Positions 1,302-9,363 of a stretch of DNA of 64,000 nt are shown in pieces (within the stretch, counting starts at the first letter, position 1; each line of letters starts with the position of its first letter). The DNA comes from Nitrospira moscoviensis (GTDB taxonomy: Bacteria; Nitrospirota; Nitrospiria; Nitrospirales; Nitrospiraceae), in the NCBI RefSeq assembly GCF_001273775.1, contig NZ_CP011801.1, forward strand, positions 992,001 to 1,056,000, written 5' to 3'. A model generated the notes under the pieces. The model worked only from the letters and a program-made list of their open reading frames with translations, searched no databases and was not told where the DNA came from. The position numbers and the translations under genes are program-made.

Positions 1302-1552
1302 CTACCAATGCCGACGTGATGATGGACAGGTCCTTTAAGAGAACGAAATTCTCAGCCATGGTGGTGGGAGGCTGAACTTCGGTGTCAGCGATGAGATGGG
1401 CGGCGAGATCGACAGAGAGTTGGACCGCACGTTGGAGGTTCAATGCAATGATGTCTTGCAAGTCCGGATCGCGTTGCAGCTGCTCGCTGGAGGCGGGCGT
1501 TTTGGCGGCGATGCGCTCGACGCATCGCCGGAGTGATTAGGTCCCGATCCAT
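1282..1552 (-). pseudogene. decayed HEPN (HepT/DUF86) toxin, frameshifted and truncated
   Basis: Read on the minus strand, the start MDRDLI is typical of HepT/DUF86 toxins. It overlaps the end of the MNT gene by 16 bases. After seven codons the homology jumps to another frame, SLRRCVERI, and continues through PDLQDIIALNLQRAV, VDLAAHLI and PPTTMAENF to a stop at 1282-1284. Compared with the usual start, a few codons plus a frame change are missing near 1533. The frame ends before the catalytic Arg-x(4-6)-His segment that HEPN RNases carry further on. The gene is thus broken twice and cannot encode an active toxin. This rests on my memory of the family consensus. Confidence 0.7.
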
Positions 1553-1971
1553 GCTTTTCTTCTGGCGGCGAGGATTCGTCGGTAGTATGGCATGAAATCC
1601 GCCTCTTCGTAGATCATTCGGCGGATGAGCTCGGCATAGTGAACCCGGTCCCTGCACAGGATCTTACGACCCTGCGTCAGGATTTGCTGGAGAAGAGGGC
1701 CATGCGTCAGATCCAGATCGATCAAATCGACCGGGCGACCCACGGCTACGGCCAGGTCGCCGATAAGATCCATCCGACCTTGCGAAGTGAGTGGAGTCGT
1801 GGCGGCGAACGCCACGTCGAGGTCGCTGTCTGTTCGACCGCGTCCTGCCGCGAGCGAGCCAAACAGGAAGGCCATCACGATGGACGGATGGCGGTTCAAC
1901 ACGCGTAAGATCTCTTGGTCGATATCGCTGCTGTGCGGGGATGCTGATCGAACCATGTCCCTGAGTATCAC
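1537..1971 (-). CDS. MNT-family nucleotidyltransferase, antitoxin type
   Basis: A 144-residue minimal nucleotidyltransferase. The signature is FLFGSLAAGRG followed by SDLDVAF: the Gly-Ser helix and the paired metal-binding Asp residues of the polymerase-beta fold. A third acidic position is in PVDLIDLD. MntA/MNT proteins are antitoxins that inactivate HEPN toxins, by covalent nucleotide transfer in characterised cases. Here the HEPN partner directly downstream is broken, so this looks like an orphaned antitoxin. A second in-frame ATG (MVRSASPH) five codons in is an equally good start. Confidence 0.8.
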   Translation of the reverse strand: MILRDMVRSASPHSSDIDQEILRVLNRHPSIVMAFLFGSLAAGRGRTDSDLDVAFAATTPLTSQGRMDLIGDLAVAVGRPVDLIDLDLTHGPLLQQILTQGRKILCRDRVHYAELIRRMIYEEADFMPYYRRILAARRKAWIGT

Positions 1972-2583: not shown

Positions 2584-4032
2584 TCACCCCACTTCCTGCA
2601 GCTTCACGAGATTCGTACCCCCCGGTTGTCCGATTCTCGTTCCGGAGAGGATGACGATCCGCTCACCGGGTTTGACCAGCCCTTCGCTTTTCAAGCGGCG
2701 TTCCGCTTCATCGATGCGCTCGTCGGTCTGGGCGATTTGTTGCATGGTCTGGGGGCGCACGCCCCAGTAGAGCGCCATGCGGCGCCGGACCGATTCGAAC
2801 GGGGTGAACGCGATGATCGGCGCGGCCGGGCGCTGCTTGGAGATGAGCCGCGCGGTGCGGCCCAGCTCGCTGAACGCCACGATCGCGCTGGCGCTGATGG
2901 CTCCCGCGGCCGACGAGGCGGCGGTGCAGATCGCTTCCGGCAGCGACATGTCGCCTGCATCAACCTGACGGCGATGCACGACGCCGCGTTCGGAGCCTTC
3001 TTCCGCCGCGCGGATGATCCGATCCATCACCTGGACCGTCTCGACCGGATACCGGCCGACGGCGGTTTCCGCCGACAGCATCACGGCATCGGTGCCGTCG
3101 AAAATGGCGTTGGCCACGTCGGACGCTTCGGCCCGTGTCGGGCGCGGATGGTGCGTCATCGATTCCAACATCTGCGTGGCGGTGATCACGAGCCGGCGCC
3201 GGCGATTCGCTTCGGCGATGATGCGCTTCTGCAACAGCGGCACCGCTTCCGGCCCCATTTCGACGCCGAGATCGCCGCGGGCGATCATGACGCCGTCCGC
3301 CTCTTCCAGAATCTCATCCAGACCAGCGACGGCTTCGGCCCGTTCTATTTTGGCGATGATCGGCACCTCGGCGCCGCAATCGGCGATGAGTCGCTTGGCC
3401 GCCACGACGTCTGCGCCGTCTCCGACGAACGACAGCGCCACATAATCCACGCCCTGCGCGATCCCGAATTGGATGTCGGCGCGATCCTTGTCGGTCAACG
3501 CCGGTGCACGGAGCCGGGTGCCGGGCAGGTTGATGCCCTTATGCGAGGTGATCGTTCCTCCGGTGAGGACGATACATTCCACGCAGCCGCTTGCGATGCG
3601 GGTCGCCTGGAGCTCGATGAGCCCGTCGTCGATCAGAATACGAGCGCCGGATTCCAGGTCACGCGCCAGATGCGGATAGGTGATGGGAATGTCGATGCCG
3701 CCGCACCCACGATCGGGCGGGGCGGCCGCTCTGTCGGACGTGGCGGGCTCCGGCGTCAACCGGACGGATCGGCCGGTCTCAAGCGCCATCGTCCGGGCGG
3801 GCAGCTCGCCTACGCGAATGCGCGGGCCTTGGAGGTCTTGGATGATGGCCACCGCTGCGGCGCGGCGGTCCGCCGCCCGGCGGACCGCCTTGATCGCCGC
3901 GGCATGGGAGCCGTGCGTGCCGTGTGAGAAATTGAGTCGCGCGGCGTCCATGCCGCTGTCGATCAGACGGTCCAGTTGACCGAGCGACTCACTGGCAGGG
4001 CCGATGGTGCAGACGATCTTCACTTTGCGCAT
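2584..4032 (-). CDS. pyk: pyruvate kinase
   Basis: Converts phosphoenolpyruvate and ADP to pyruvate and ATP in the cytoplasm. At 482 residues it has standard length. Family motifs in order: CTIGPAS near the N-terminus, NFSHG (catalytic-site Arg/Asn loop), the B-domain, the active-site block AKIERAEAV, then GVMIARGDLGVE with the metal-binding acidic residues, TATQMLESM, and FDGTDAVMLSAETA. The C-terminal allosteric domain is complete. The start MRKVKIVCT was chosen because the 15 codons before it are basic and low-complexity. The gene is divergent from the phosphatase/phosphofructokinase fusion across a 190-211 bp gap, so the two glycolytic genes may share a regulatory region. Confidence 0.96.
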   Translation of the reverse strand: MRKVKIVCTIGPASESLGQLDRLIDSGMDAARLNFSHGTHGSHAAAIKAVRRAADRRAAAVAIIQDLQGPRIRVGELPARTMALETGRSVRLTPEPATSDRAAAPPDRGCGGIDIPITYPHLARDLESGARILIDDGLIELQATRIASGCVECIVLTGGTITSHKGINLPGTRLRAPALTDKDRADIQFGIAQGVDYVALSFVGDGADVVAAKRLIADCGAEVPIIAKIERAEAVAGLDEILEEADGVMIARGDLGVEMGPEAVPLLQKRIIAEANRRRRLVITATQMLESMTHHPRPTRAEASDVANAIFDGTDAVMLSAETAVGRYPVETVQVMDRIIRAAEEGSERGVVHRRQVDAGDMSLPEAICTAASSAAGAISASAIVAFSELGRTARLISKQRPAAPIIAFTPFESVRRRMALYWGVRPQTMQQIAQTDERIDEAERRLKSEGLVKPGERIVILSGTRIGQPGGTNLVKLQEVG

Positions 4033-4243
4033 GCGAGGTTCCGAACATGGGGCGGCTCGTCGTCGCCGCGGGCGCACGTGAGCGCATGACGTATATCACA
4101 GCGAACGGAATTTGTATTGCGGCACCGTCTTCCGCACCGAGATTTTACACAGATTTTTCCCGGCGGCTCTGGACAAGCGGCGGCGGACGTCGCAATGATG
4201 CGAGGGCCGCCCCGCTGTTACAATGGCTCAGCACGAGGTGCCT

Positions 4244-6574
4244 ATGCCGAATGCTCCACAGCTACTCGATTTCGTGACCCTCGAAGGTCTGCTCGCCTAT
4301 GGGAACCGGCTGGCGCAACGCGCACCGGACGAGCGCGTGGACTGGCCGGCCGTGCGGGCCTGCTCTCTGCCATCACAACTCAGCCGCGTGAAGGCGGCCA
4401 CGGACGCGATTGCCGCCTTGGTGCAACAGGCGCCGAAGGGATTTCCCGATGCCGAGGCCTACCGGTCGGCGAGGCAGACAGTGGTCGACACAGCGTGCGG
4501 GGGCGATCCGGTCGTCTTCTTCGCCGCGTGGAATCGCCTGCTGGCGGAAGGGGCCCTGCAACCCTTGCTCCGCGCGCCGATCGGGTCCGTGCTGAAGCCG
4601 ACTCACCGCCGCCCGGTGGCCATCGTGCCGCGCGCGCAGTTGACGCCGCAATTGGCCGAGGGGCGCATCGTGCTGGACCTGGGCGACGACCGGTTCTGGC
4701 TCTTGCCGCGCGATCTGGCGGACCGCACCTTGCTCTTCACCATGCGCCACGGCGTTTCGCGCGTCGAAAGCAAGACGCACCGCGTGGGCCGCCGCCTGGC
4801 CAACGAACTGGACCCGGAACGGGGCGTGCCGCGGGCCGAGGCCGTGGGCGCGGCCCTCGCGCGCATGGTGGGCGTCGTGGGCCGGCAGCTCGACTTTTTG
4901 AATCTGTCGAACTACCTCGATCCAGGGAAATTCCTCCACTTCATCAGCCGCAGTCCGAATACCCGGCAGCTCTTCGAACGGGTGGCGGCCGGGTTGGCCG
5001 GCGGCGAACGTGTCGTCCCCGAGCCGGCTTATGCGCATCCGCTGGAATCGTCGGACTTCGGGTGGGTGACGGGCATGGAAAAAACCGCGGAAGCGCAAGA
5101 GCTCGCCGCTGCGTTAGGGGTCGAGGTGCCGGCGGCGAAGCGTCTCATCAAAGATCCGCTGTACTGCTATCCCGGCGGCCATTCGTTTTTCGATCTCTAT
5201 GTCGACGTGATCGACGGACTGCACCGGCTCGGTCAGGCCCATCCGGGCACGGTCGCCTGCCTGTACACGCATAGCTCCACGTTGCGCGCGCTCATGATCT
5301 ATCTGGACCCGCGCCCGTTTCACGAAGCCTTCACGGAGTTCAGCGACTATAAAGAAAGCCAGGACAACGTGGTGCTGCTCACGTTCGAAAAGGGGCGGCT
5401 GTCCGGCTACTCCACGGCCGTGGGGTTGTCACAGCGGGAGAAGGCCGCGCGGGAGACGTGGATCACCGTCGAACGGGTGCGCAAGGATCGGGTGACGCTG
5501 AAGCCGAGACAGATCAAGCGGATCGTCGCCCTGGTCTCCGGAGGGGATTTCGCCGGTGCCGGGGCGGCGTTGAAAGAGCTGCGCGTGACGGGCAACCGGC
5601 TCGGATTGAAAGTGCATTTCGTCCGCCACGGCTTTCTGGGGCTGGCGAATAATTGGATCGCGACCGTCACCGAAGACGATACGCGGGGAATGAGCAGCGT
5701 CGCGAGCAGCCCCATCGGCAGCAGTCGGTTCGAGGACTTCAAGGATGAAACGGTGCAGCAGGCGGCGATGCGGAATTTGGAGCCCTATCTTGAAGACGGG
5801 GCGTTGGTCGTCCTGGGCGGCGACGGCAGCCTGCGCGGCGCGCGGGCGATCTTTGAAGGCTTCGGCGTCCAAGTCGTCGGCCTCCCCGGCACCATCGACA
5901 ACAACATCGAAGGGACGACATCGCTCGGCTATCATTCCGCCGTCGCGTTGGCCGATCAGTCCATCGAATCGCTCAAGGCGACGAGCGCCGCGATGGGTAC
6001 GGTGTTCTTCGTCGAAGTGATGGGAGCCGGCTCCGGACACCTGGCGCTGGCCTGTGCCTATCAGGCGAGAGCCGAGGGCCTGCTGGTGAACGAGCATCCG
6101 GACCCCGACGCCTATATCGACGACGTGATTCTCGGGACGCTGAAGCAGACCCTCGGGGTGCCCAATAAAAGTCATCTCTTTGTCGTGGCCGAACGCACTC
6201 CGCACCGCCACCACAGCGACGGCGGCGTGCATGGGTTGGTGCCCTACGTGGCGGGCGCGATGGCGCAATGGCCGCCCCGCCAAGGCCGCTCAGGCTGCTA
6301 TGCACCGACCCAGGCGACCAAGGCCACCATTTTGGGCCATACCTTGCGGGGAGCGCCGCCGACTCCCGAGGACAAGGCCATAGCGCAACACGTGGCGTAT
6401 GAGGCCGTTCATCGGTTGGTGGAACGGCCGGATGAAGTCGTCGGCTGCATGCTGGCCTACCGGGAGCGGGCGGTGATCGAAGCCATCCCGCTCCATGCGG
6501 TGGCGCCGAAACAGTTCGATTGGGAGTTGTTCGCCAGAATGCACGGCAGCGAGCCCTCTGGGAATCTTCGGTAA
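4244..6574 (+). CDS. histidine phosphatase / 6-phosphofructokinase fusion protein
   Basis: A 776-residue two-domain protein. Residues 1 to about 420 contain a histidine-phosphatase (phosphoglycerate-mutase superfamily) domain: the RHG motif is at 168-170 (His169 the expected phospho-acceptor) and the second catalytic-type His is at 343 in YTHSSTLRA. From about 425 a PFK-1 fold follows: SGGD (432-435), GGDGS (525-529, the ATP-type Gly), PGTIDNN (548-554) and GHTLRG. Asp552 matches the catalytic base of bacterial PFK, but the next conserved Asp is Asn554, and the Arg of the MGR motif is Ala595. Start 4244 has GAGGTG upstream; an ATG at 4223 is the alternative. The architecture resembles a swapped analogue of PFKFB enzymes. 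Activity of either half is inferred. Confidence 0.85.
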   Translation: MPNAPQLLDFVTLEGLLAYGNRLAQRAPDERVDWPAVRACSLPSQLSRVKAATDAIAALVQQAPKGFPDAEAYRSARQTVVDTACGGDPVVFFAAWNRLLAEGALQPLLRAPIGSVLKPTHRRPVAIVPRAQLTPQLAEGRIVLDLGDDRFWLLPRDLADRTLLFTMRHGVSRVESKTHRVGRRLANELDPERGVPRAEAVGAALARMVGVVGRQLDFLNLSNYLDPGKFLHFISRSPNTRQLFERVAAGLAGGERVVPEPAYAHPLESSDFGWVTGMEKTAEAQELAAALGVEVPAAKRLIKDPLYCYPGGHSFFDLYVDVIDGLHRLGQAHPGTVACLYTHSSTLRALMIYLDPRPFHEAFTEFSDYKESQDNVVLLTFEKGRLSGYSTAVGLSQREKAARETWITVERVRKDRVTLKPRQIKRIVALVSGGDFAGAGAALKELRVTGNRLGLKVHFVRHGFLGLANNWIATVTEDDTRGMSSVASSPIGSSRFEDFKDETVQQAAMRNLEPYLEDGALVVLGGDGSLRGARAIFEGFGVQVVGLPGTIDNNIEGTTSLGYHSAVALADQSIESLKATSAAMGTVFFVEVMGAGSGHLALACAYQARAEGLLVNEHPDPDAYIDDVILGTLKQTLGVPNKSHLFVVAERTPHRHHSDGGVHGLVPYVAGAMAQWPPRQGRSGCYAPTQATKATILGHTLRGAPPTPEDKAIAQHVAYEAVHRLVERPDEVVGCMLAYRERAVIEAIPLHAVAPKQFDWELFARMHGSEPSGNLR

Positions 6575-6580
6575 TCCCCG

Positions 6581-8020
6581 CTACGGGTGGACCGACAGGT
6601 TCACTTCGATGGAAAGGTGGTCGGTCCGGCCGGGGCCCGGAGCGACGACGTACATCGCATGTTCGGGCGGCACGTCGGGTCGGCCCGGCTCTACGCGTTC
6701 CGTCAGCAGCGCGGGCGACGACTGAGTCGGCGGCGGCGCATGTGGATCGCGAGGGCTGCGGGAGAAGACAATGAGGATCCGCGCCGGCTTGGCTTCTGTC
6801 TGCCGTTCAAAGAGCGCCGCTAAGGAAATGACGAGGGTCTTCCTGCCGGTCACCCCCCCATCGCCTTCCAGGGGGAACAGCCGTACCGGTGTCTCGCCTG
6901 CCGATCCCGGGCTATAGACAGCCAGGTAGCCGTCCTGGTTCGTTTGAACGGTCAGCCTCGGAGCATCGTCTTTTCCGATCGCCGTGGATGGATCGACTTC
7001 CAGATCAATCCCGCCCGGACCGGCCATGAGCAAACTATAGCGCAGGCCCAGCGGAGCCTGGACCGGTTGCGTGTCGGTCGATAGTTGACCGAGCAGCCCG
7101 ATGCTCCGCTCCGCCCGTTTCTTTTCCCTTGTGGCGGCCTCTGCCGTCCTCCGGTCTTCGCTCTTCTGCTTGGCTGCTTCCCGTGAAGCGGCCGGCTCTT
7201 GCTGGGTGACAGAGAGTGGCTCGGCGACCGCCGGTGAGGCCGCGTAAAACAACGCGCGCGCGCTCGCGGCCGGAGGGCCGGCGCTTGCGGCGGCGGGCGC
7301 AGCCGGCGTTTGCGGTGAGAGAGGCGATTGAACCGGCCGCTGTGCCGGCGCTTCTGCGTCCGTCGCAGCGCGAGCGTCTTCGGCCGCTTTGCCGGAGGTG
7401 GCCACCTCGTCACGCGTCTTGTCCTGCTTCACGAGTGCTTCTTTGCGATCATGTCCGGCGTCGAGTCGGGACGGTTCCTGCGGTTTGGCCGGGACCGCGC
7501 GCCCGCGCCGGGCAAGCGGCGGTTCTGCCTCTCGCTGCCCGGACGGAGGAGCCTTTGCGCTCGTGTCTGTCAACTCGCGCTCCGGTTGGACACGTTGAGG
7601 CGGAGGAGTGGAAGCCGGCGGTGGGGCGGGCATGGGGGAGGCCGGAGCCTTCGTGTCTTCGGTGGCGACCGCCGGCGCGCGCTGCCGCAGACTGTCCTGA
7701 TAGATCTTGGCGCCCAGCACGACGGCAAGGGCGGCCGCGGCCAGGCCGCCGGCAAAGGCCAATCCCGCCGGCCGTCGCAGCCAATCGAGCCACGAGCAGG
7801 CCTCGCCGGGCTCGGACGTCTTGCCTTGATTCAAGGCGTGAAGCAGACGGCGGCGCACGGCGGGATCGGCCAGCAGCTCTTTCAACGCCTGCTCATCAGC
7901 CAGCGAGTTGAATAGCTGTTGGTCTTCGAGCGCGGCACGGTACAGCAGCCGGCGTTCCTCAGACGTCAACGTATCCGCTGCGAAGCCGCCGAGGAGTTTC
8001 TCTAAGTCGTGCTCGGGCAT
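6581..8020 (-). CDS. membrane anti-sigma-like protein with DUF4384-like C-terminus
   Basis: A 479-residue single-span membrane protein encoded directly after an ECF sigma gene. Residues 1-75 are helical and acidic, with LLGGFAADTLTSEERRLLYRA and a second helix around FNSLADEQALKELL. This resembles an anti-sigma N-terminus but lacks the His/Cys zinc motif. A transmembrane segment lies near 88-105. Residues 110-310 are Pro/Ala/Glu-rich and disordered. The C-terminus (about 340-470) is a beta-rich domain with TNQDGYLAVYSPG and VRLFPLEGDGG, resembling DUF4384. Regulation of the neighbouring sigma factor is inferred from gene order, not from a conserved zinc-binding domain. Confidence 0.6.
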   Translation of the reverse strand: MPEHDLEKLLGGFAADTLTSEERRLLYRAALEDQQLFNSLADEQALKELLADPAVRRRLLHALNQGKTSEPGEACSWLDWLRRPAGLAFAGGLAAAALAVVLGAKIYQDSLRQRAPAVATEDTKAPASPMPAPPPASTPPPQRVQPERELTDTSAKAPPSGQREAEPPLARRGRAVPAKPQEPSRLDAGHDRKEALVKQDKTRDEVATSGKAAEDARAATDAEAPAQRPVQSPLSPQTPAAPAAASAGPPAASARALFYAASPAVAEPLSVTQQEPAASREAAKQKSEDRRTAEAATREKKRAERSIGLLGQLSTDTQPVQAPLGLRYSLLMAGPGGIDLEVDPSTAIGKDDAPRLTVQTNQDGYLAVYSPGSAGETPVRLFPLEGDGGVTGRKTLVISLAALFERQTEAKPARILIVFSRSPRDPHAPPPTQSSPALLTERVEPGRPDVPPEHAMYVVAPGPGRTDHLSIEVNLSVHP

Positions 8021-8067
8021 GGCGAGATTACAAATGCAAAATTAAACATTCAAAATTATAAATTGCA
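8021..8067. repeat. AT-rich palindromic spacer between sigma and anti-sigma-like genes
   Basis: A 47-bp AT-rich spacer made of repeated words: ATGCAAAATT, ATTCAAAATT, then AAATTGCAT. The outer ATGCAA and TTGCAT are inverted. Its composition contrasts with the GC-rich flanking genes. It may form an RNA hairpin that tunes expression of the downstream gene. It belongs to the same kind of short-period spacer seen elsewhere in this window. Confidence 0.35.
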
Positions 8068-8565
8068 TCATTCCCAGCTCCCGCCCATTAGACTCAACAA
8101 CTGTTTTCGGCAACGGAGGTCCCAGGTGTAGATCGTGTTGATCGACGCCTGGCCCATCAGTTTTTGAATCTCCGGGAAAGACTTGCCTTCCAGTTTCCAC
8201 TTGAACAGCTCCCGACAGCGCTCGCCGAGTTGCGCAAGGGCGGCGAGCAGCCGGTCGACACGCTGCTTCTGGTCCAACTGTGTCGCCGGGTCGTCGGCCG
8301 GATCGGCGAGCGGGAGGTCGTCGAGCGATGCCTGATTATACTCACCGCGCCGGAGCGCTTTCCGATGGGCGTCCGACATCTTGAAGCGCAGGACCTGAAA
8401 GGCGAGGGGCACCAGCTCCGTCAACTCGGTCACGTGCGGGTACTTGTCATGCAGGACGGCCAGCACGTCCTGGGTCAGGTCCTCCGCCTGGTCCCTCGCT
8501 ACTCGTGATGTCGCGAAGGCGAGAATCCTTTCGCGAAGCGAGGCGAGGATGTGATCGCGATCCAT
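8068..8565 (-). CDS. RNA polymerase ECF-type sigma factor
   Basis: A 165-residue extracytoplasmic-function sigma factor. Region 2 is visible as AEDLTQDVLAVLHDKY (core-binding helix) followed by the DNA-melting segment FQVLRFKMSDAHRKA. Region 4 is near residues 105-160, with LGERCRELFKWKLEGKSFPEIQKLM as the start of the helix-turn-helix and INTIYTWDLRCRKQL as the recognition helix. It should direct polymerase to a small regulon, possibly including its own operon. The anti-sigma-like gene follows 47 bp downstream. The stimulus cannot be deduced. Confidence 0.85.
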   Translation of the reverse strand: MDRDHILASLRERILAFATSRVARDQAEDLTQDVLAVLHDKYPHVTELTELVPLAFQVLRFKMSDAHRKALRRGEYNQASLDDLPLADPADDPATQLDQKQRVDRLLAALAQLGERCRELFKWKLEGKSFPEIQKLMGQASINTIYTWDLRCRKQLLSLMGGSWE

Positions 8566-8605: not shown

Positions 8606-9004
8606 CTATAACCAGTTCTCCACGTTCAATCGTGGCACGCGCTTAAACTCGGCGATGTTGTTGGTGATGAGAGTCACATCCAGGCTTACTGCATGAGCTG
8701 CGATCAGGAGATCCATGGCTCCGATGAGGCGACCCTGTTTTTCCAAGACGGTTCTGACACGGCCGTATTCGGCAGCCGCGTCGGTATCGAACGGCGCGAC
8801 CTCAAGAGGCGCGGTAAACTCGCTGAGCGCTTCTCGGTTGCGTGCAGGATCACGGCTCTTTGCCACGCCGTACAAGAGTTCCGCCAGCGTGATGATGGAG
8901 ATGCCGATTGTTCCGACCTGAAACGAGCGAAAGCGATCGAGAACGGAGACCGGGTGTTTTTTAATGAGGTAAATGCAGATGTTGGTATCGAGCATGAGCT
9001 TCAT
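8606..9004 (-). CDS. vapC: PIN-domain toxin VapC
   Basis: A 132-residue PIN-domain ribonuclease toxin. Conserved acidic residues are present: Asp in the opening [10 protein letters not shown], Glu in ITLAELLYG, Asp in [12 protein letters not shown], and Asn where a fourth acidic residue often sits (LITNNIAEF). The start MKLMLDT is fixed by a four-base ATGA overlap with the antitoxin stop, indicating translational coupling. The reading frame extends further upstream only as out-of-frame antitoxin sequence. It most resembles VapC toxins that cut tRNA(fMet); that target is inferred from general similarity only. Confidence 0.92.
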
Positions 9005-9237
9005 GAAAAGGCGCGTCCGCGCTTCTGGACGCGAGGCTGTTTTCGCCCCCTTTTCATGAAGTCGCTCGTGAATTTCGAGAAGCTGCTCATCATCACGTTC
9101 CAAGACGGTTTCTTGGGGCGTAAGACGAGCACATCGCCTTGCCGCCGTATCTCCACTTCGGTGCCCTCAAGATGAAACTCTCGCGGAATGCGCACCGCCT
9201 GACTGTTGCCGCTGCGGAAAATTTTCGCAGTCTTCAT
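9001..9237 (-). CDS. vapB: antitoxin VapB (SpoVT/AbrB-type DNA binding)
   Basis: A 78-residue antitoxin. The N-terminal swapped-hairpin DNA-binding domain is clear in [18 protein letters not shown] and [16 protein letters not shown]. The C-terminal tail ([20 protein letters not shown]) is the expected toxin-binding region. The start was chosen at MKTAKIF, preceded by GGAGG about 7 bases upstream; the longer frame adds non-homologous residues. It overlaps vapC by four bases. VapBC complexes usually repress their own promoter, and a palindrome lies just upstream of this start. Confidence 0.92.
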
Positions 9238-9245
9238 GACGGTCC

Positions 9246-9270
9246 TCCGTGTATACGAAGGATATACGGA
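9246..9270. promoter_or_regulatory. candidate vapBC operator palindrome
   Basis: An imperfect inverted repeat, with half-sites TCCGTGTATA and TATACGGA around a short centre, lies immediately before the vapB ribosome-binding site and partly overlaps it. Its position and symmetry fit an autoregulatory VapBC operator. GTATAC-type half-sites are common for VapB proteins with AbrB-like domains. The TATAC elements may also serve as the -10 box of the same promoter. Confidence 0.45.
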
Positions 9271-9363
9271 GCCCATTGTACCGTCAAGGCGATCGATAGG
9301 ACATGGCCGGGCAGCATTTGGAGAATCGCATCTCGATCCACGGCCGTCAAAATACGCTTCGGC

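Follow-up and report, generated by a model that had tools for sequence, protein, structure and literature searches.

A single open reading frame in the window (the whole 64,000-nucleotide stretch of Nitrospira moscoviensis DNA analysed here) encodes a fusion of a histidine-phosphatase (HP) fold with a phosphofructokinase-1 (PFK-1) domain, and sequence comparison indicates a trait of long standing in the class Nitrospiria. The same key positions are replaced in both halves across the species compared, and the Nitrospira-type enzyme of glycolysis therefore seems to be rebuilt, in a manner undescribed so far. We tentatively propose, with somewhat less than even credence, that the protein is a PFK-1-family, ATP-dependent ketose-phosphate kinase that would act at the glycolytic gate of Nitrospiria beside pyruvate kinase and would carry a built-in regulator derived from an HP. 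The constituent folds are known; their joining and the double pattern of substitutions were absent from the literature searched, which was open-access (most subscription journals lie outside its scope) and yielded neither a paper on an HP-PFK-1 fusion nor any biochemistry of one. A 2025 review noted that bacterial PFK structures come from three phyla only and that new domain fusions are to be expected (PMC12203962).

The gene, its start region and its domains are arranged as follows.
4033..4243, no strand: intergenic region shared by the fusion and pyruvate kinase genes, with one weak sigma-70-like match
4235..4238, + strand: GAGG, putative Shine-Dalgarno-like element, 5 nucleotides 5' of the ATG at 4244
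4244..6574, + strand: HP-PFK fusion gene, 776 amino acids plus stop, a single uninterrupted open reading frame
4244..4705, + strand: N-terminal extension, residues 1-154, helical and variable at 1-110, strongly conserved at 111-154 (KP..RRPVAIVPR)
4706..5431, + strand: HP fold, residues about 155-396, from VIA, Foldseek and hhalign
5516..6508, + strand: PFK-1 domain, residues about 425-755, from Pfam PF00365 and VIA

The first in-frame ATG lies at 4223, which gives the span 4223-6574 in the list of open reading frames. The start at 4244, as chosen in the first-pass annotation, is preferable, since GAGG stands 5 nucleotides ahead of it and relatives become similar only from residue 8 of its frame onward; upstream of 4223 there is no GAGG-like element.

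The same annotation had described a PGM-superfamily domain joined to a PFK-1 fold, and the fusion proved to be real in both parts. Pfam PFK (PF00365) matches residues 426-723 with an E-value of 4e-53 and 180.9 bits against a cut-off of 30.9. By NCBIfam the domain is ATP-PFK-like, yet the equivalog TIGR02482 is missed by far, at 170 versus 371 bits. The PFK half gives a VIA Z of 22 to bacterial PFKs; the full-length model is of low confidence in this half. By sequence, His_Phos_1 is weak (E 0.0026, below the curated cut-off) and reaches up to E 2e-6 in relatives. Searched by sequence, the HP part had no meaningful match among solved structures; hhalign gave a probability of 92-95%, and Foldseek placed it in the HP fold among families including TIGAR, PFKFB and yeast YKR043C. 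A separate model of the N-terminal part (mean pLDDT 79.7, pTM 0.83; model residue n is protein residue n+6) aligned over model residues 155-387 with PhoE/YhfR (1ebb/1h2e), with a VIA Z of 16.5 and an rmsd of 2.7 over 193 residues. Phosphoserine phosphatases, dPGM, CobC and TIGAR follow just below, and no one HP subfamily is favoured, because rows within 1 Z unit are ties. At the level of the predicted model, the HP fold in the N-terminal half is confirmed; the extension that precedes it, residues 1-154, has no fold assigned.

The one-ORF fusion, with the same substitutions, recurs in 113 distinct sequences, which takes it far beyond chance; a frameshift or misassembly is thereby ruled out. There is no stop or frameshift between the domains, and no relative has them as separate genes, either of which, in the earlier account, would have spoken against a fusion. 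A Nitrospirota-wide search for the same domain order, which that account had suggested, found the fusion in several families of the class Nitrospiria. Full fusions turned up in the protein search at the levels of genus, family and order, and further families of the class, at 64-72% identity, came from the phylum sample; elsewhere in the phylum, only separate PFKs occur. A profile of the N-terminal part, run on 396 phylum genomes, matched 101 of them; among the matches listed, all are in the class and are fusion-length open frames except for fragments or broken copies in G005, G090, G096 and G331. No stand-alone copy of the N-terminal part was found among the 396 genomes. In a scan of species genomes with exact 8-residue patterns, 113 matches were confirmed, and the best 80 of them, those listed, bear nearly all Nitrospirota names (Nitrospira and Nitrospirota MAGs); this 113 equals by coincidence the 113 distinct full-length fusions from all fetched loci, to which the counts below refer. 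Some copies appear damaged, namely a stop-riddled one (G090), a broken one (G020) and one present as fragments only (G096), through either ongoing loss or assembly error.

Ten fusions were placed in a tree of 34 PFKs, where they group together with full support on a very long stem (3.45 changes per site); the midpoint root leaves them on the ATP side. The minimum pairwise identity among fusions is 66% for the PFK half and 59% for the HP half. The grouping, the long stem and the high minimum identities point to a single origin, after which the fusion first changed strongly and was then strongly conserved.

The residues of the kinase half were compared with E. coli PfkA and then over the 113 fusions; residues paired below with those of the fusion follow E. 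coli numbering.
5816..5830, + strand: GGDGS, residues 525-529, ATP-type signature (alignment to PfkA, 113 fusions)
5891..5905, + strand: TIDNN, residues 550-554, in which Asp552 is the base Asp127 of E. coli and Asn554 replaces Asp129
5999..6001, + strand: Thr586, at the position of Arg162 (Ser in 101, Thr in 11 and Asn in 1 of 113)
6020..6028, + strand: MGA, residues 593-595, aligned with MGR (Arg171), with Ala595 for the Arg
6320..6349, + strand: Lys693 (Arg243), His699 (His249) and Arg702 (Arg252), by alignment

The first description, from GGDGS, Asp552, Asn554 and Ala595, of a changed kinase pocket with ATP signature and base retained is borne out over the 113 fusions, and these residues were found at their positions in the translation. 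The ATP-type positions Gly104, Gly108 and Gly124 of PFK (PMC12203962) correspond to Gly528, Gly532 and Gly549, which are invariant, as are Asp527, Asp552, Glu650, His699 and Arg702. Equivalents of Asp103, Asp127, Arg72, Glu222, His249 and Arg252 are E. coli-like features that the fusion shares, along with the fold. A PPi-dependent kinase was ruled out on signatures, with GGDG and Gly124 here versus GGDD and Lys124. By contrast with E. coli PFK-1, the fusion has Asn at 129, Ala at 171 and Lys at 243, all three invariant, and Ser or Thr at 162, in addition to a 420-residue N-terminal addition. The effector-site residues of E. coli PFK-1, Arg21, Arg25, Arg54, Lys211 and Lys213, are replaced as well. 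The changes at Arg162, at Arg243 and in the effector site extend the original description. Among the 22 non-fused PFKs of the phylum compared, Asp129 is present in 22 and Arg171 in 21; one stand-alone PFK (L167, genome G233) has MGA for MGR and retains Asp129 and Arg162. Residues 583-621, around the sugar site, are the most conserved stretch, with 96% mean conservation, and the PFK domain is therefore under constraint rather than decaying.

Asp129 is a cofactor-binding residue (PMC10339645), and the loss of both Asp129 and Arg171 is unusual for an active PFK, which argues against an active kinase. The PFK half might instead be a kinase-dead sensor that, as in the C-terminal half of eukaryotic PFKs, does no more than bind ligands, and the protein would then serve as a regulator or phosphotransfer protein. 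The non-catalytic half of human PFK likewise has Asn at Asp129 and no MGR Arg in our alignment (TISNN, MGG). However, that half has lost the base and the ATP pocket (alignment; PMC12203962), whereas the fusion keeps Asp552, GGDGS and the three glycines, and we regard the kinase-dead reading as improbable.

A further possibility is a kinase whose substrate has changed, for instance to sedoheptulose 7-phosphate or some other phosphosugar, with a remade phosphate clamp from the neighbouring subunit. The replacements of Arg162 by Ser or Thr, Arg243 by Lys and Arg171 by Ala are fixed in the class, and Arg162 is also lost in PPi-PFKs that phosphorylate sedoheptulose 7-phosphate, an observation that its source calls inconclusive (PMC10339645). 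However, the fusion keeps the equivalents of His249 and Arg252, and the PPi-PFKs cited also change His249; moreover, the presence of transaldolase makes a sedoheptulose bisphosphate route unneeded. We consider a changed substrate, as the main point, rather unlikely. In the favoured reading, fructose 6-phosphate would be the first candidate substrate of the kinase.

Changes also affect the HP active site, a point that the first-pass annotation had not remarked.
4745..4753, + strand: RHG, Arg168-His169-Gly170, invariant in 113
4955..4966, + strand: Pro238-Asn239-Thr240-Arg241, where the second catalytic Arg is usually found (Arg241 in 75 of 113)
5045..5050, + strand: Glu268-Ser269, with Ser269 (112 of 113) where the acid Glu usually stands, and Glu or Asp at 268 beside it
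5270..5272, + strand: His343, second catalytic His, invariant in 113

In the HP superfamily, the Arg and His of RHG, a second Arg and a second His are characteristic of all members, and the proton donor varies (PMC12051542). RHG at 168-170 and His343 had been placed correctly from the start and match the branch 1 HPs (PhoE, H. thermophilus phosphoserine phosphatase and dPGM), as does the fold. Compared to these, the fusion has Ser at the Glu position, no conserved second Arg at the usual place and, in this protein, a score below the Pfam cut-off. The usual place of the second Arg is the helix after the second strand, where position 241 is Arg in 75 of 113 fusions. In three joint alignments with 27 HP sequences, the column of the second Arg differs and in none holds a conserved Arg; all three pair Ser269 with the proton-donor Glu. 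Arg246 (107 of 113) is the closest Arg of high conservation and might stand in for the second one. Because of Ser269 and the second Arg, unconserved at its place, phosphatase activity is uncertain and, with the futile cycle, cannot be assumed. The earlier designation as an active histidine phosphatase finds no support as worded, and the futile-cycle enzyme built upon it is weakened but possible.

The obvious comparison is PFKFB (6-phosphofructo-2-kinase/fructose-2,6-bisphosphatase), which also couples a sugar-phosphate kinase and an HP domain in one protein. The PFK-2 kinase of PFKFB has a P-loop fold unrelated to PFK-1 and lies N-terminal to the HP domain, whereas the kinase half of the fusion is PF00365, of PFK-1 fold, and C-terminal. 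The contrast in kinase fold and domain order drawn in the first-pass annotation therefore stands, and membership in PFKFB fails on both; a PFKFB-like way of working is possible. The fusion could be a bifunctional kinase/bisphosphatase, a convergent analogue of PFKFB that sets the net flux; a sugar bisphosphate formed by the PFK half would then be dephosphorylated by the HP half. Consistent with it are the invariant RHG and His343, a fold near those of TIGAR, PFKFB and YKR043C (solved with fructose 1,6- and sedoheptulose 1,7-bisphosphate), the acidic residue at 268 adjoining the lost acid position, and Arg246 as a possible second Arg. However, the characteristic second Arg (PMC12051542) is unconserved at its place, the Glu is Ser269, and the host genome already has a class I FBPase; we consider such bifunctionality rather unlikely. 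Somewhat less likely still is an independently evolved bacterial counterpart of PFKFB that forms a sugar bisphosphate and degrades it again, using non-canonical residues at its two active sites, and so directs carbon flow in autotrophic nitrifiers. The kinase/bisphosphatase and changed-substrate readings are not mutually exclusive.

The reading as a kinase with a built-in regulator is favoured because the effector site and Arg162 of the PFK half are replaced, and in the HP half Glu has become Ser269 and the second Arg is unconserved. In PFKs, Arg162 from the adjacent subunit touches fructose 6-phosphate in the R state only (PMC12203962). We propose that the PFK half would be active, with ATP as donor and a ketose phosphate as acceptor, and that the HP domain would bind a phosphorylated metabolite, or hold a phosphohistidine, and thereby set kinase activity. 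This sensor would replace the usual PEP/ADP effector site and the Arg162 switch. The invariance of both His169 and His343 argues against a pure binding domain, which would not obviously need both. An enzyme-derived N-terminal domain is also found on yeast PFK, which has an extra domain distantly related to glyoxalase I; that added domain differs from the one here and belongs to a duplicated eukaryotic PFK (PMC12203962). A lineage in which Arg162, Arg171, Asp129 and the effector site are all replaced would be a natural test of what a PFK requires.

The neighbourhood is consistent with a glycolytic role.
2584..4032, - strand: pyruvate kinase (Pfam), divergent neighbour, adjacent in 55 of 97 loci

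This gene faces the fusion across the 4033-4243 gap, in line with the shared promoter region originally noted. Pyruvate kinase lies near the fusion in 57 of 97 loci, 55 of them as close neighbours (some genomes are covered twice, and loci without linkage include short contigs and one sublineage). The arrangement is divergent as here in 35, same-strand downstream in 15, convergent downstream in 5 and about 2.4 kb upstream in 2. Among the neighbouring pyruvate kinases there are two deeply divided groups, one in family f1 and the other in family f3, which differ in their identity to the enzyme of the window (37-39% versus 60-70%). That pyruvate kinase is linked to the fusion in different arrangements and by different paralogues speaks for a glycolytic role, although in-place replacement is possible. 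The host genome itself carries two pyruvate kinases (L228 and that at 2584-4032). Across the order, fusion and pyruvate kinase co-occur (46/2 versus 25/26; Fisher p 9e-8, uncorrected for descent), and within the genus p is 0.07, not significant. The fusion is absent from about 39% of genus members searched, most of which keep pyruvate kinase, which argues against a glycolytic gate.

The host genome, one contig of 4,589,485 bases, has only two PFKs in our search, the fusion and a PPi-PFK that passes its NCBIfam cut-off, so the fusion is its sole ATP-type PFK-1. It also encodes a class I FBPase, dPGM, a SixA-like protein and two transaldolase-family genes; FBPase, dPGM, transaldolase and PPi-PFK being encoded elsewhere, none of those jobs needs the fusion. 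The HP domain as the host's phosphoglycerate mutase or FBPase was accordingly set aside as unneeded. Nitrospira are major nitrite oxidizers, including comammox bacteria, and their genome reports describe glycolysis as complete, or without PFK in reduced genomes (PMC8115632, PMC9239080). If a genome has no ATP-type PFK-1 other than the fusion, as is the case for the host, the annotation of a complete glycolysis rests on a putative enzyme.

Glycogen phosphorylase as a partner was uninformative, since most genus members match it with or without the fusion. At least 4 Nitrospira genomes have a second PFK-family gene about 1 kb from a full-length glycogen phosphorylase, which is of PPi type in the two that were read (L176 in G041 and L177 in G031). 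Two loci (L159 in G128 and L161 in G119) hold an adjacent PFK pair, one ATP-type with GGDG and one PPi-type with GGDD and Lys. Elsewhere in the window, 8606-9276 (- strand) encodes a PIN-domain protein with a MazE-type antitoxin, an ordinary type II pair, and 8-436 another PIN protein. A minimal nucleotidyltransferase (Polbeta) with a possible partner ORF lies at 1537-1971 (- strand). The region 6581-8565 (- strand) encodes a short sigma-70 region 4 protein and then a 479-residue protein with no Pfam match, which is possibly its anti-sigma partner.
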